DNA from: Chryseobacterium sp. POL2
Lineage (GTDB): Bacteria; Bacteroidota; Bacteroidia; Flavobacteriales; Weeksellaceae
Length of the DNA: 64,000 bases
Direction of reading: 5' to 3'
NCBI RefSeq assembly: GCF_011058315.1
Contig: NZ_CP049298.1
Span: 1,364,001 to 1,428,000, forward strand
Numbering within the stretch: the stretch's first letter is position 1; the number at the start of each line of letters is the position of its first letter. Both the position numbers and the translations under genes were made by a program. The notes below the pieces were generated by a model that saw only the letters and a program-made list of their open reading frames with translations, searched no databases and was not told the origin of the DNA. This document shows, piece after piece, positions 30,449-44,170 of this stretch.

Positions 30449-30640
30449 AGTGGTGACTTTATAGGTTAAAATTAATTTCCGGTAACCTGCTAATCAAGAT
30501 GTTCAAATCTGCTACACCTTTATTAACAAGCCTTTTGGAAAAATTCGGTTACCTAAAAAGTTTGAAAATGATGAGGTCACCTAAAAGGTCACCTTTAATT
30601 TGAGAATAATTGGTTCTTTCTGAAAATCTCTAAAAATAAA

Positions 30641-30670
30641 AACCCCTCAGAATCTGCGATTTGAGGGGTT
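30641..30670 (-). terminator. Terminator downstream of the tRNA-Phe pair
   Basis: AACCCCTCA and TGAGGGGTT form a stem with an A/T-rich tail on the minus strand. It lies inside the island side of attR, so the island supplies the terminator for the tRNA transcript. Confidence 0.75.
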
Positions 30671-30690
30671 TTGTTAGAAATTGTTTAATT

Positions 30691-30711
30691 TCTCGTGGTT
30701 TCTCCAGGAAT
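30691..30711 (+). repeat. attR: 21-bp repeat covering the tRNA-Phe 3' end
   Basis: Same 21 bases as 7703-7723. It covers the last 16 nt of the tRNA gene plus 5 downstream bases, a standard integration target of tyrosine recombinases. Confidence 0.85.
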
Positions 30712-30768
30712 CGAACCAGGGACACATGGATTTTCAATCCATTGCTCTACCAACTGAGCTAAGAAACC
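30696..30768 (-). tRNA. tRNA-Phe (GAA), att site copy
   Basis: A 73-nt cloverleaf: acceptor GGTTTCT/AGAAACC, D arm with AGCTCAGTTGGTAGAGC, anticodon loop TTGAAAA (GAA) and T arm CCTGGTTCGATTCCTGG. CCA is not encoded. The island is integrated at its 3' end without damaging it. Confidence 0.95.
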
Positions 30769-30812
30769 TTTTGGTTTAAAAAACAAGCCTCAATAAGAGG
30801 CTCTGAAATTTG

Positions 30813-30885
30813 TGGTTTCTCCAGGAATCGAACCAGGGACACATGGATTTTCAATCCATTGCTCTACCAACTGAGCTAAGAAACC
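30813..30885 (-). tRNA. tRNA-Phe (GAA), second copy
   Basis: Identical in sequence to the first copy and 44 bp upstream of it on the same strand. The two are probably co-transcribed. Bases beyond the 3' end (GTGG preceded by TT) lack the CTCG of the att repeat. Confidence 0.95.
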
Positions 30886-30982
30886 GCCTTTCAAACAATA
30901 ATATTTATTGTTTTTAGTGGTGCAAAAGTAGGAAGAATTAATATACAATACAAGACATTCTTTACTTTTTCTTAAAATATTT

Positions 30983-37706: not shown

Positions 37707-40082
37707 ATGAAATTAAAAATATCAGCAATCGCTATTAGCTGTTCTGCATTAGTATTTGCGCAGAACATTCAAAACAATCCAGGAAGCAATCATGGAAACA
37801 AATTTGAACAATTAGGCACGATTCTTCCAACACCTAATTCTTATAGAGCTGCTTCTGGAGCGCCTGGACATGCCTATTGGCAGAACCGTGCAGATTATGA
37901 CATTTCGGCATATTTGGATGAAGACAAACGCAATCTACGTGGTGTAGAAACTGTAACCTACCACAACAATTCGCCAGACACTTTGGATTACATCTGGTTG
38001 CAATTGGATGAAAATCAACAATCAAGCGTTAAAAATGCGAATTATCAATTTTCATCAAAGCTTCCAACAACGATAACAAGTGACAACTTAAAAACCACCG
38101 ACCTTCCTGCCAAAGACAATTCTTACGGGGTTAATTTAACGAAAGTTACAGATGCATCAGGCAAAAACCTTAGTTATGTGGTTAACAAAACCATGATGCG
38201 AATTGACCTTCCAAAAGCTATAAAAAAAGGCGAAACATTTACATTTAAAATCGAATGGAATTATAATATCCCCAACCGAATCCAACTTGGCGGTCGTGGA
38301 GGTTATGAGTTTTTCCCTGAAGATGGCAACGACTTATACACCATCACGCAATGGTTCCCACGACTTTGCGTCTATAGCGATTTCCAAGGTTGGCAGAACC
38401 ACCAATTCACTGGGCGTGGAGAATTTGCTTTGGTGTTCGGGAATTATAAAGTAAGTATTAATGTTCCTGCGGATCATATTGTTGGCGCAACTGGCGAAGG
38501 AAAAAACTTCGACAAAGTTCTAACATCTGCACAATTTGCAAGATATCAACAAGCGAAAACCGCGAAAGAACCCATTGAAATTGTCACTTTAGAGGAAGCT
38601 AAAAAAGCTGAAAAATCTAAATCCAAAGAACGTAAAACTTGGATTTTTGAAGCCAAAGATGTGCGTGATTTTGCTTGGACATCGTCACGAAAATTTGTTT
38701 GGGACGGGATGAATGTCAACATTCCAGAAAACAACAACAATGTAATGGCCATGAGTCTTTATGGCAAAGAAGCCTATGGACTTTACCGAAAATATTCGAC
38801 AAAAGCGGTAGCGCATACCATCAAAACTTATTCAGAATTTACGGTGCCATATCCGTATCCTGTAGCGCAATCTGTAGAAGCTGCCAATGGTATGGAATAT
38901 CCGATGATTTGTTTCAATTACGGAAGAACCGAGAAAGACGGCACGTATTCTGAAGCGATAAAAAACGGCATGATTGGCGTAATTATCCATGAAGTGGGGC
39001 ACAATTTTTTTCCAATGATTATCAACTCCGACGAAAGACAATGGAGCTGGATGGATGAAGGGCTGAACACTTTTGTACAGTTTTTAACAGAAACAAAATG
39101 GGATAACAAGTTCCCTTCTAGACGTGGTCCAGCAGACAAAATTGTTGATTATATGAAATTGCCAAAAGATCAACTAGAACCGATTATGAGCAACTCCGAA
39201 AACATTGTTCAGTTTGGCCCAAATGCATATTCTAAACCAGCGACAGGACTTAATATTCTTCGCGAAACTGTTATGGGACGCGATTTATTCGATCAAGCTT
39301 TCAAAACTTACTCCAAGCGTTGGGCATTTCGTCATCCAGAACCTGCAGATTTTTTCAGAACCATGGAAGATGCTAGTGGAGAAGATTTGGATTGGTTTTG
39401 GAGAGGTTGGTTTTACAGCACAGATCCTGTTGACATTGCTTTATCAAAAGTTTCTTTAGCGAAACCAAATTTCGATGCAAAACCAAATTCTAGACAAATT
39501 AATTATAAAATAGATCCACCCGCAGAAGATGACATTAATGACATTTCTAAAGTAAGAGCGCGTGAGCAAAAAACAAAATTTTATGTTGATGAGGACAAAG
39601 ATCTGCAAGATTTCTATTACCGCTATGCAAGAGGTCAGGAAAAAATAGACACCAACAAAACCTATTCTTTCACCGAAGATTATTTTGACAGCTTATCAAA
39701 AGATGAACAAAATAAATTCAAAAACATACAAGCCTACCAATTGGATTTTGAAAATAAAGGAGGTATGGTGATGCCTATTATTTTAGAATTTACTTTTGAA
39801 GATGGATCAAAACTAGAGGACCATATCCCAGCACAAATCTGGCGACATAACGAACAGAAGGTTTCTAAAATCTATTATTTTGATAAAAGATTAAAATCTG
39901 TACAACTAGATCCACGCAAACAAACTGCCGATATCGACATCTCTAACAATTATTGGTCAACAACGGACAATGCTTTGCCAGAAAGCAAGTTCCAAGTTTT
40001 CAAACAAAAACAACAAGGCGCCGTGCGCGGTGCTTCTAATGGACAGCTTAATCCAATGCAGGCATCCGGAAAAAGTAAATAA
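37707..40082 (+). CDS. M1-family metallopeptidase, secreted
   Basis: A 791-aa protein with a signal peptide (MKLKISAIAISCSALVFAQ). The zinc site is H428-E-V-G-H, with the third ligand E in WSWMDEGLN 18 residues on. The upstream GMEYP motif is the M1 substrate-binding element (AMEN/GxMEN position). A long C-terminal region (about 600-791) lacks a T9SS sorting domain. The enzyme removes N-terminal residues from peptides, probably in the periplasm. Confidence 0.85.
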   Translation: MKLKISAIAISCSALVFAQNIQNNPGSNHGNKFEQLGTILPTPNSYRAASGAPGHAYWQNRADYDISAYLDEDKRNLRGVETVTYHNNSPDTLDYIWLQLDENQQSSVKNANYQFSSKLPTTITSDNLKTTDLPAKDNSYGVNLTKVTDASGKNLSYVVNKTMMRIDLPKAIKKGETFTFKIEWNYNIPNRIQLGGRGGYEFFPEDGNDLYTITQWFPRLCVYSDFQGWQNHQFTGRGEFALVFGNYKVSINVPADHIVGATGEGKNFDKVLTSAQFARYQQAKTAKEPIEIVTLEEAKKAEKSKSKERKTWIFEAKDVRDFAWTSSRKFVWDGMNVNIPENNNNVMAMSLYGKEAYGLYRKYSTKAVAHTIKTYSEFTVPYPYPVAQSVEAANGMEYPMICFNYGRTEKDGTYSEAIKNGMIGVIIHEVGHNFFPMIINSDERQWSWMDEGLNTFVQFLTETKWDNKFPSRRGPADKIVDYMKLPKDQLEPIMSNSENIVQFGPNAYSKPATGLNILRETVMGRDLFDQAFKTYSKRWAFRHPEPADFFRTMEDASGEDLDWFWRGWFYSTDPVDIALSKVSLAKPNFDAKPNSRQINYKIDPPAEDDINDISKVRAREQKTKFYVDEDKDLQDFYYRYARGQEKIDTNKTYSFTEDYFDSLSKDEQNKFKNIQAYQLDFENKGGMVMPIILEFTFEDGSKLEDHIPAQIWRHNEQKVSKIYYFDKRLKSVQLDPRKQTADIDISNNYWSTTDNALPESKFQVFKQKQQGAVRGASNGQLNPMQASGKSK

Positions 40083-40096
40083 TATTGTCGACCTTC

Positions 40097-40153
40097 AAAA
40101 GAGGTTTTGTCCTAAAAATGTAAAAAGTAAGTTTAGCACAAAATCTCTTTTTT
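40097..40153 (+). terminator. Terminator of the M1 peptidase gene
   Basis: AAAAGAGGTTTTGT pairs with ACAAAATCTCTTTT (one G-T pair) across a 27-nt loop and is followed by T residues. The rest of the interval to groES (40154-40427) has no gene. Confidence 0.55.
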
Positions 40154-40427
40154 CGGCCTTGTTAATAAACATTAATTTTTAATAACAATTTTATTATCAA
40201 TAACTTTCCCCATGTCAAACCCATTTGCCCCGCAATAAAATCCGAATTAATTCGTGAAAATTAGATAAAAACAGCTTCCCTCATTATTCTTTTTCTGCCA
40301 AAATTTCACATTTTTATTTTTCTTCTGCCAATATTTATCCAAGAACCCTAGACAAAGCACCAAGAACCAAGATGGCACATTCTTGGAGAATAAGAGAATA
40401 GATAAAAATTAAAAAATAAATATAATT

Positions 40428-40706
40428 ATGTCAGTTAATTTCAAACCACTTTCAGATAGAGTTCTTGTTGAGCCTATCGCTGCAGAAACTAAGACTGCTT
40501 CAGGAATCATTATCCCAGACACAGCTAAAGAAAAACCACAAGAAGGTACCGTAGTTGCTGTTGGAGCTGGAAAAAAAGACGAACCTATGACGGTAAAAGT
40601 TGGAGACAAAGTACTTTATGGAAAATATTCTGGTCAAGAATTAAAATTAGATGGCAAAGATTTCTTAATCGTTAGAGAAGCTGACCTTTTAGGAATTATT
40701 GGTTAA
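40428..40706 (+). CDS. groES: GroES co-chaperonin
   Basis: A 92-aa Cpn10: [20 protein letters not shown], the mobile loop ([17 protein letters not shown]) and the C-terminal [15 protein letters not shown] are all present. It forms the heptameric lid of GroEL. Unusually, a four-helix-bundle gene separates it from groEL. Confidence 0.97.
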
Positions 40707-40729
40707 TTGCTATAGACAATAGGCAATAG

Positions 40730-40745
40730 GCATTAAGCTATAAGC
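40730..40745 (+). repeat. Left inverted repeat flanking the four-helix-bundle gene
   Basis: GCATTAAGCTATAAGC, matching 15 of 16 bases with the reverse complement of 41118-41133. Just upstream is a short tandem of CAATAGG units (40718-40730). Confidence 0.7.
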
Positions 40746-40746
40746 A

Positions 40747-41103
40747 ATGAGAGATTTCAGAAAATATGATGTTTGGCAACTAAATCATGAGTTTGTTTTA
40801 GAAATTTACAAAATCACCAATGACTTTCCCAAAGAAGAATTATATAATCTTACATCTCAATTACGAAGAGCTAGTGCTTCAATTCCAACAAATATAAGTG
40901 AAGGTTGTGGACGAAATTCAGATAAAGAATTTAATCATTTCCTAAACATTGCTTTAGGTTCAGCTTCTGAAACTGAATATTTAATTATTCTTTCAAAAGA
41001 TTTAGACTTAATTGATAATTCAACAGCTTCAAATCTTTTAGAAAAATTAAATCATTTCAAAAGAAAATTATATAAATTAAAAGAAAAATTAAACTCGCAT
41101 TAA
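40747..41103 (+). CDS. Four-helix-bundle protein (23S rRNA-IVS / S23 family)
   Basis: A 118-aa protein with the S23 family pattern: FRKYDVWQLNHEFVLEIYKI, FPKEELYNLTSQLRRASASI, NISEGCGRNSDKEFNHFLNI and ALGSASETEYLI. The family is known from ORFs in 23S rRNA intervening sequences and is related to the Avd protein of diversity-generating retroelements; its biochemical role is not established. Here it is inserted in groES-groEL, with inverted repeats on both sides and no reverse transcriptase near. It begins 40 bp after groES. Confidence 0.85.
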   Translation: MRDFRKYDVWQLNHEFVLEIYKITNDFPKEELYNLTSQLRRASASIPTNISEGCGRNSDKEFNHFLNIALGSASETEYLIILSKDLDLIDNSTASNLLEKLNHFKRKLYKLKEKLNSH

Positions 41104-41117
41104 GAATATAGCCGAAA

Positions 41118-41133
41118 GCTTATCGCTTAATGC
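41118..41133 (-). repeat. Right inverted repeat flanking the four-helix-bundle gene
   Basis: GCTTATCGCTTAATGC; its reverse complement equals the left repeat except at one base. It lies 14 bp after the gene and 16 bp before the groEL start. Confidence 0.7.
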
Positions 41134-41137
41134 TTAA

Positions 41138-42775
<1,638 letters not shown>

Positions 42776-42800
42776 GCATCTTTGATGCCCAAAATAAAAA

Positions 42801-42828
42801 CCGTTCAGAAATTCTGAACGGTTTTTTT
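42801..42828 (+). terminator. groEL terminator
   Basis: CCGTTCAGA and TCTGAACGG form a 9-bp stem with a 3-nt loop and a seven-T tail. Confidence 0.92.
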
Positions 42829-42881
42829 ATTATTCCTATGTCCCGTCCTGAAATAGCGATACAAAAAAAATAATCGTTATT

Positions 42882-43310
42882 ATGGAAGAAAGAAACAATT
42901 ATGTCAAACGCACTCAGCGCGATTACAGTATGTCTTTTAAGTTGAACGTTGTAAAAGAAATCGAGTCTGGAGAACTCTCTACCACTGTTGCTTGCCGAAA
43001 ATATGGCATCCAAGCTCGAAGCACAGTTGTGAGTTGGCTCAGAAAATTTGGTACCTTTGATTGGGAGAACCAAACGCCTTCGAATATGCCAAAGTCACCA
43101 GAACAAAAGATCATGGAGCTTGAAGCCCAAGTAAAGCTTTTGCAAAAGCAGAAGGCTTTCCTTGAGAAACAGGCTTATGTGGCTGATAAAAAAGCCATTA
43201 TTTTCGATATGATGATTAACCTTGCCGAAGAGGAATATCAAATTGATATACGAAAAAACTCACCACCCGAACTATCGACTCTTTCCGAAAGGAACAAAAA
43301 GAAACCATAA
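42882..43310 (+). CDS. IS3-family OrfA
   Basis: A 142-aa HTH protein: residues 10-65 (YSMSFKLNVVKEIESGELST, KYGIQARSTVVSWLRKFG) bind the terminal repeats; residues 75-100 form a leucine-zipper-like helix. The sequence after the heptamer at 43253 is the non-shifted tail of OrfA alone. Confidence 0.9.
   Translation: MEERNNYVKRTQRDYSMSFKLNVVKEIESGELSTTVACRKYGIQARSTVVSWLRKFGTFDWENQTPSNMPKSPEQKIMELEAQVKLLQKQKAFLEKQAYVADKKAIIFDMMINLAEEEYQIDIRKNSPPELSTLSERNKKKP
43253..43259 (+). promoter_or_regulatory. -1 frameshift heptamer A AAA AAC
   Basis: In the orfA frame the codons read CGA AAA AAC, the canonical X XXY YYZ slippery site. Slipping back one base leads straight into the orfB frame (ctc acc acc cga), giving one OrfAB protein of about 429 aa. 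Confidence 0.8.
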
Positions 43311-43324
43311 GTTTCTCCTGTGAA

Positions 43325-44170
43325 TTGTTCGGGGTGGACCGACAGGTTTATTATCGTCATTTAAAGCGAAGAGCAAAGCGGCAGCAAAGTGCACAGCAGG
43401 TTGTGGATTGGGTTGGAGAAATAAGGATTGTCCATCCCAAAATGGGTGGAAAAAAATTATATTTTCTTTTGAAAGAGAAACTTGAAATCTTAAAGATTGG
43501 CAGAGACAAATTCTTTGATATCCTAAGAGCTAACCATTTGTTAATCATCCCTAAAAGATGTTATCACAAAACAACCAATTCGTATCATCGTTTTAAGAAA
43601 CATAAAAATTTAATTAAAGATTATCAATGCAGAAAACCAAATAATGTATGGGTGTCGGATATCACCTACTTGGGAAACAGAGAAAATCCTGCCTATTTAA
43701 GCTTGATAACCGATGCTTATTCTAAGAAAATCGTAGGCTTTGACGTGTCGGATTCTTTGGCTACAGCATCTTGTTTAAATGCTCTAAAAATGGCATTGAA
43801 AAAAGAAAACCCGAAGAGTCTTATTCATCACTCAGACAGAGGATTACAATATTGTTCCGATGATTATCAAAAGTTATTAAAAAAGCATAAAATACGTTGT
43901 AGTATGACACAAGAATCAGATCCTTATGAGAATGCCATAGCCGAAAGAATTAATGGAATTTTAAAACAAGAGTATGATATTGATAAATCTAATGTAGATT
44001 TGAATACAAGAAAGATTTTGGTCAAACAAACCGTAAAGGTCTATAATGAGTTACGACCGCATTTGTCAAACTATTATTTAACACCGATGCAAATACACCA
44101 GCAACAAGATTTAATACCAAAATCGTACAAAAAGAAAAACAGTACAAATACGAATATATGTACTGTTTAA
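43325..44170 (+). CDS. IS3-family transposase OrfB (DDE), made as OrfAB
   Basis: The catalytic triad is visible: D in WVSDITYLG, D in IHHSDRGLQYCS and E in NAIAERINGILK. An HTH_21-like region precedes the core. There is no convincing independent start (the frame opens at a TTG), so production depends on the -1 shift from orfA. The element appears functional. Confidence 0.9.
   Translation: MFGVDRQVYYRHLKRRAKRQQSAQQVVDWVGEIRIVHPKMGGKKLYFLLKEKLEILKIGRDKFFDILRANHLLIIPKRCYHKTTNSYHRFKKHKNLIKDYQCRKPNNVWVSDITYLGNRENPAYLSLITDAYSKKIVGFDVSDSLATASCLNALKMALKKENPKSLIHHSDRGLQYCSDDYQKLLKKHKIRCSMTQESDPYENAIAERINGILKQEYDIDKSNVDLNTRKILVKQTVKVYNELRPHLSNYYLTPMQIHQQQDLIPKSYKKKNSTNTNICTV

Follow-up and report, generated by a model that had tools for sequence, protein, structure and literature searches.

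We have identified an insert between groES and groEL of Chryseobacterium sp. POL2 that is likely a mobile cassette resembling an intervening sequence (IVS), carried in an mRNA and not in 23S rRNA. It is one copy of a unit made of left heptamers, an S23 gene and complementary right heptamers. At most of the about 270 loci at which we surveyed the layout, gene and repeats go together as a unit built in the same way; the loci come from Bacteroidota and further phyla, from plasmids of cyanobacteria and from phage contigs. A selfish-looking insert sits inside an operon that is commonly regarded as fixed. The S23-heptamer unit ties together the function of the S23/IVP protein, the origin of the 23S rRNA IVS and that of bacterial heptamer repeats.

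Structure of the insert and predicted pairing of its arms

The window is the whole stretch of 64,000 nucleotides analysed here, and its host genome is a single contig of 3.24 Mb. All features of the locus are on the plus strand. The insert occupies 40707-41149 (443 nt), with groES as the host gene on its 5' side (40428-40706, stop codon 40704-40706; PF00166 Cpn10, 115.6 bits) and groEL on its 3' side (41150-42775; PF00118 Cpn60_TCP1, 254.8 bits). At 40747-41103, in sense to groES-groEL, lies an intact S23/23S rRNA IVP gene of 118 aa, which matches PF05635 at 133.8 bits (cut-off 33.8) and TIGR02436 at 132.7 bits (cut-off 24). Together with the Cpn10 and Cpn60 matches on either side, these scores confirm the S23-family gene that a sequence-only reading of the window had placed in the groES-groEL gap. 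PF05635 is the sole Pfam match of the only protein that the cassette encodes, and no Y1 (RAYT) transposase is found between the repeats.

Each flank of the gene is an array of five degenerate heptamers. The left (5') arm (40707-40746) follows the register GCNNTAR, with GCTATAG at 40709-40715, ACAATAG at 40716-40722, GCAATAG at 40723-40729, GCATTAA at 40730-40736 and GCTATAA at 40737-40743; a blind lag-7 scan picked up this array independently at 40710-40745. The right (3') arm (41104-41149) is complementary to the left one and follows the register YTANNGC, with ATATAGC at 41106-41112, CGAAAGC at 41113-41119, TTATCGC at 41120-41126, TTAATGC at 41127-41133 and TTAACGC at 41134-41140. The outer ends of the arrays fall just past the groES stop codon and about 10 bases short of the groEL start. 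The near-identical 16-bp inverted repeats of the sequence-only reading were correctly positioned: the left copy, GCATTAAGCTATAAGC (40730-40745), and the right copy, GCTTATCGCTTAATGC (41118-41133), are complementary at 15 of 16 positions and are nested in a 39-nt inverted repeat with 72% complementarity. That reading had not recognized that both flanks are heptamer arrays, that the genome has eight S23 loci or that the repeats mark the two ends of an element of general occurrence.

The duplex of the two flanks as RNA was predicted at -26.6 kcal/mol versus -9.5 +/- 2.8 kcal/mol for shuffled flanks, and none of 2000 shuffles was as low. In the predicted minimum free energy fold of the 443-nt insert the arms are paired (18.6 expected arm-to-arm pairs) with the S23 ORF in the loop, in agreement with the earlier proposal that the transcript could fold the insert into a stem. 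The flank complementarity score of the groESL S23 gene was 39, against a 99th percentile of 37.7 for 396 control genes from 464 kb of the same genome, and the eight S23 genes of the genome averaged 34.6 versus 22.3 for the controls (P 0.0006). A chance inverted repeat in AT-rich DNA was ruled out by the shuffles and the control genes. An Rfam scan of 40000-43000 returned no family match, whether to a group I or group II intron or to any other described RNA; group II introns, riboswitches and other Rfam RNAs were rejected as candidates, with no match at the window or in 20 S23 loci of other groups.

Two further features of the window were recorded. Directly 3' of groEL, at 42882-44170, is a two-ORF transposase pair with HTH_Tnp_1 and rve domains that is IS3-like. 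In the gap at 30449-30982, between codirectional minus-strand genes, a direct repeat stands out very strongly (score 149, z 54.7).

Gene and arms as a recurring unit

All eight PF05635 loci of the host genome lie in spacers between codirectional protein-coding genes. From the translations of the neighbours we take the sites to be groESL, sufB-C, sufC-D, carA-B, two fatty-acid genes, the metH region, capsule genes and an efflux operon. The suf operon (2001898-2006459 of the host genome; L005 and L007) carries two distantly related S23 genes in the adjoining spacers sufB-C and sufC-D. The copy at 2443568-2443879 (L003), like that at L093, adjoins a metH that is apparently split into two ORFs, and the L003 copy has an in-frame TGA. 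S23 genes occur in 103 of 120 genomes of the host family, at up to 17 copies, and in 116 of 148 genomes of a phylum sample. With neighbouring genes called by simple ORF rules, 107 of the 110 family S23 genes for which both neighbours were visible were codirectional with both, versus 57% of gene triples in the host genome, and the median spacings to the neighbours were 40 and 22 bp (n=110). The recurrent sites in the family include, by our own naming of the genes, fadB-A, groESL, carAB, fadA-acyl-CoA dehydrogenase, gmk-nadD and purC-purF. An independent case of one such site is published for Flavobacterium columnare, where the order gmk, four helix bundle protein, nadD is given without remark (PMC5524665).

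Arms were scored in the 90 nt 5' and 110 nt 3' of the S23 gene at 112 family loci. Flank complementarity was 34.4 within a locus versus 21.6 across loci, and the best of 5000 permuted means was 23.8; direct similarity of the flanks was much weaker (24.0 within versus 20.5 across loci). Complementarity within loci was found again in the phylum sample, in IMG/VR viral contigs and in named genomes of Bacteroidota, Chloroflexi, Poribacteria, Planctomycetes, Verrucomicrobia, Acidobacteria and Proteobacteria. Since loci were chosen by profile score and overlap in ancestry, the permutation P values are optimistic; the control genes and the swapping of arms within a site are the safer tests. The flanks have a marked period of 7: tetramers recurred at 0.03-0.11 at lags 7, 14 and 21, whereas other lags gave no more than about 0.03, and values in the S23 coding sequence and in the neighbouring genes were about 0.01. 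A heptamer array was present on at least one side of 83, 66, 91 and 90% of the loci in four sets, with 4-5% expected by chance per flank.

The heptamer word varies between loci, yet the two arms of any one locus match, and a single flank sequence common to all S23 genes was ruled out. The sequence-only reading had called for a search for other copies with the same type of flank: the inverted heptamer layout proved to be general, while the word itself is specific to the locus. In swaps of arms between copies of one site and one word class, own arms paired better than swapped ones at groESL (P 0.002), fadBA (P <0.0002), carAB (P 0.011), fadA-acd (P 0.003) and moxR (P 0.04). Pairing, and not just the word, is therefore kept as the sequence changes, and the swaps show the two arms of the cassette to co-vary in sequence.

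Arrays without a gene are found genome-wide in the host genome (G000) and in a second genome, G079, where by extrapolation they outnumber the S23 genes. Sampled stretches held 10 lag-7 arrays in 464 kb of the host genome and 11 in 400 kb of G079, versus one in 800 kb of S23-free genomes and one in 200 kb of ten other S23-rich genomes. Two genomes thus hold most of the arrays; a tight genome-wide link between the numbers of S23 genes and heptamer arrays was not established, and the association is only suggestive. One gene-less array of the host genome (L407:19488-19520, near 1,499,500) has the same AAGC word class and lies beside an apparent tRNA gene end.

Outside the family, twelve S23 genes were plasmid-borne, all of them cyanobacterial and mostly with clear inverted heptamer arms, as where GTAGGGA arrays are answered by TCCCTAC arrays. 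Their sites include nrdB/nrdA, cas6/cas4 and cas10/cmr3 spacers, and at least two of the plasmid loci are antisense to their neighbours. Three of these plasmid loci (L458, L462 and L465) have heptamer-flanked S23 cassettes within CRISPR operons (cas6-cas4, cas10-cmr3). In the ten viral contigs examined, S23 was mostly antisense to phage structural genes. Antisense genes lie among tape measure, tail and capsid genes at L249, L253, L255, L256, L259, L268, L273, L276 and L278, in contrast to the host family with its strictly sense orientation. A tblastn search with the window S23 protein gave no match in annotated phage records; relatives do occur in IMG/VR contigs.

Presence, transfer and movement of the cassette

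An S23 gene is found at groES-groEL in 20 of 97 genomes, from 13 genera of the host family plus one of another family of the order; named records of four Flavobacterium species also have it there. Presence is patchy and differs within genera. The genus mate of the window genome has GTACAAT-type arms without a gene at this site. Alignment of the junctions, as the sequence-only reading had recommended, found the insert missing from most relatives and variable within genera; a gene in all relatives, with flanks unlike those of other S23 genes, was not the pattern observed. Some spacers show decay: L058 has a truncated S23 gene between arms, L048 and L307 have the right arm only, resembling the right arm of L308, and the genus designated g24 has mismatched arm classes. 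Among gene-less groES-groEL spacers, inverted words were significant in 23 of 60 from S23-positive genomes versus none of 16 from S23-free genomes, in which these spacers are short and plain (Fisher P 0.0014, an optimistic value as the S23-free genomes come from seven genera, with seven genomes from one genus). In six genomes (G059, G081, G097, G107, G111 and G115) several partial copies of the 3' end of groEL lie close to the gene itself, in the same contig and orientation, a pattern that repeated insertions duplicating this end might leave.

The groES-groEL S23 copies form one group (99/96; 91/87 in another tree). Holding together the copies of one host genus was rejected for g21 (AU P 3e-45) and likewise for g27 (1.5e-4), both of which have two separate groESL S23 lineages. 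The copy in the window falls into a group with those from Flavobacterium, which belong to another family (92/89). At L050 and L051, from two genera, the S23 gene is 99% identical versus about 90% for groES and groEL. These trees and identities show lateral transfer of the S23 cassette at groESL. In this recent transfer the likeness is also unusually high over several hundred bases at the start of groEL, so that recombination between homologous flanks may suffice to explain it; the pair could not be used to define the insertion border, because the transferred tract extends into groEL. Judged from these sequences, movement between species at groESL looks more like a transfer that included adjoining groEL sequence than like proven transposition.

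In the S23 tree, copies cluster mainly according to operon site, so jumps to new sites are rare. A purC-purF copy (L077) nests among the fadB-A copies, and L091 and L111 nest among the carAB copies, in each case with the same heptamer words. On alignment of the moved copies, similarity begins and stops at the outer arm ends. Tree and alignment together show that gene and both arms moved as one between operons elsewhere in the family. Pairs of copies at different sites had a flank-word score of 77 where their proteins were more than 65% alike, versus about 41 for the rest; over all different-site pairs the correlation between word and protein similarity was weak (Spearman 0.04), the signal being confined to close relatives. 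No direct target-site duplication was seen at the moved copies L077 and L111, which were compared without their exact empty sites. An RVT_1 search of the host genome found no reverse transcriptase, and mobility driven by such an enzyme was ruled out there. As neither target-site duplication nor transposase nor reverse transcriptase was found, mobility is deduced from comparison.

The encoded protein

The AlphaFold model of the window S23 protein is a four-helix bundle (pLDDT 96) with a TM score of 0.93 to 2gsc in Foldseek and about 0.8 to 2rld, which bears out the fold expected from the sequence-only reading. Foldseek also matched it to Avd of diversity-generating retroelements (DGRs), namely that of the Bordetella phage DGR, both alone (4dwl) and within the DGR ribonucleoprotein 8ube (TM about 0.8), at 8% identity and a weak E value (0.1); the Avd profile NF033474 scored 16.8 bits, below its cut-off of 80. 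Avd binds the DGR RNA and reverse transcriptase, and the likeness in fold suggests that S23 may bind nucleic acid. To our knowledge, no catalytic motif or activity is known for S23. Residues that are invariant among 36 sequences of many phyla include E31, Q38, R41, S45, N49, E52, G53, S72 and E75. S23 is described as a homopentamer (PMC4990558, citing a Xanthomonas structure), and the model is folded like these S23 pentamers. At groESL the dN/dS of the gene has a median of 0.23 (range 0.04-0.42); these ratios show purifying selection and thus imply that the protein is made and kept.

Discussion

Complementary arms, patchy presence, joint movement of gene and arms and likeness to the Coxiella IVS all support the sequence-only reading's proposal of an IVS-like mobile cassette in a protein-coding operon. 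In the polycistronic mRNA the arms would pair and hold the S23 ORF in a loop, on the model of the 23S rRNA IVS, and by the same analogy RNase III may excise the cassette or at any rate split the groES message from that of groEL. The cassette would be tolerated because the spacer RNA is dispensable. The insert may also affect groEL expression, as the sequence-only reading proposed. Given its distant fold likeness to Avd, S23 probably binds an arm of its own element, either paired or single-stranded and as RNA or hairpin DNA, and helps the element to persist or move. At any one site, recombination in the conserved genes on either side would probably account for spread between species; jumps to new operons would be rarer, and loss of the gene would leave arms alone. 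Several findings weigh against the mRNA cassette, among them the missing signatures of transposition, the rarity of jumps to new sites and the L050/L051 transfer, for which homologous recombination suffices. In addition, the density of heptamer arrays in long stretches tracks the presence of S23 only loosely, and the antisense genes of viral contigs and plasmid loci misfit any model in which S23 always needs a host operon for its expression. Expression from a host operon therefore cannot be a general requirement; the arms can pair on either strand.

The arms might instead belong to the host, as slippage-prone hairpin spacers that control the processing of operon messages, with S23 an ordinary resident gene such as an RNA-binding operon regulator. 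Many gene-less spacers do contain inverted word arrays, those between groES and groEL of more than 20 relatives among them, and G000 and G079 have such arrays genome-wide; S23 copies in the same operon are mostly each other's relatives, and selection maintains the protein. We nevertheless consider this explanation unlikely, as gene and arms move jointly to unrelated operons with similarity stopping at the outer arm ends, S23-free genomes have short, plain groES-groEL spacers, no other such array was found among the 33 gaps of the window, and the layout is common to viral contigs, cyanobacterial plasmids, many phyla and the Coxiella rRNA IVS (PMC4990558). That the gene is a domesticated groESL regulator, passed down vertically since an ancestor of the family with many losses along the way, is very unlikely. 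The single grouping of the groES-groEL copies and the conservation of the protein by selection would fit such a history, but g21 and g27 each have two groESL lineages, the window copy groups with those of another family, and the copies in two genera are 99% identical next to groES and groEL genes at about 90%.

Compatible with the cassette in mRNA is the proposal that S23 itself generates or keeps up the repeats. Acting in trans on DNA that is single-stranded or forms hairpins, it would have heptamers copied from arm to arm, and the gene-less arrays would be non-autonomous relatives comparable to those of REP/RAYT systems. It would account for arms that co-vary within sites, for gene-less arrays that outnumber S23 genes by extrapolation in two sampled genomes, for one array in 800 kb of S23-free genomes against 21 in 864 kb of G000 and G079, and for the presence of S23 in Xanthomonas and Nostoc, in which a heptamer excess has gone unexplained (PMC4692102). 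We hold it to be somewhat doubtful, in view of the ten other S23-rich genomes with only one array in 200 kb, the lack of a known catalytic motif in S23, and gene-less arms that can be deletion remnants, such as the lone right arms of L048 and L307 and the truncated gene of L058. More broadly, S23 and its inverted heptamer arrays could constitute a mobile-element class of their own, in many phyla, plasmids and phages, of which the rRNA IVS would be merely the rRNA form and which, with S23 copying or maintaining arms in trans, would be the source of the unexplained heptamers of Bacteroidota, cyanobacteria and xanthomonads. We put this idea forward tentatively, with somewhat less than even confidence.

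Relation to known systems

In REP/RAYT systems, one gene lies between inverted repeats and many gene-less repeat copies are present in the genome. The S23 cassette shares the gene flanked by inverted repeats and the gene-less copies, and differs in having no Y1 transposase domain and in a repeat word that changes by locus. With Avd of DGRs it shares a fold (TM about 0.8 to 4dwl and to Avd in 8ube); it differs in sequence (8% identity, NF033474 below cut-off) and in a host genome without reverse transcriptase. Intergenic heptamers have been reported without explanation as GGGNATC in Xanthomonas and Nostoc and as TAACTGA in Beggiatoaceae, cyanobacteria and some Bacteroidetes (PMC4692102, PMC4679880). 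They are likewise tandem, degenerate and intergenic, and Xanthomonas and Nostoc also encode S23 proteins; in those reports, however, the repeats are treated alone, with no mention of S23, and an inverted layout around a gene is not given as a rule. In the open-access PMC literature we found no paper that links S23, heptamers and operons, and the operon form of the cassette is apparently undescribed there; a description elsewhere is possible.

The closest parallels are in the 23S rRNA IVS of Coxiella, Leptospira and Brucella, which have an S23 ORF between complementary, stem-forming ends and a similar overall length of about 430-440 bp. The window insert differs in its location, a spacer of a protein-coding operon instead of helix 45 of 23S rRNA. 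In the Coxiella IVS, a 28-bp terminal stem is cut by RNase III and three GACAGAT heptamers precede the S23 ORF (PMC4990558), in keeping with the earlier statement that 23S rRNA IVS with pairing ends carry this protein family. Its ORF is decaying, whereas that of the window is intact and under purifying selection; for the window cassette, excision by RNase III would be a prediction by analogy. Both have tandem heptamers just 5' of the S23 start, five in the window (40709-40743), and the 5' heptamers of the Coxiella IVS look like a hallmark of S23 elements.
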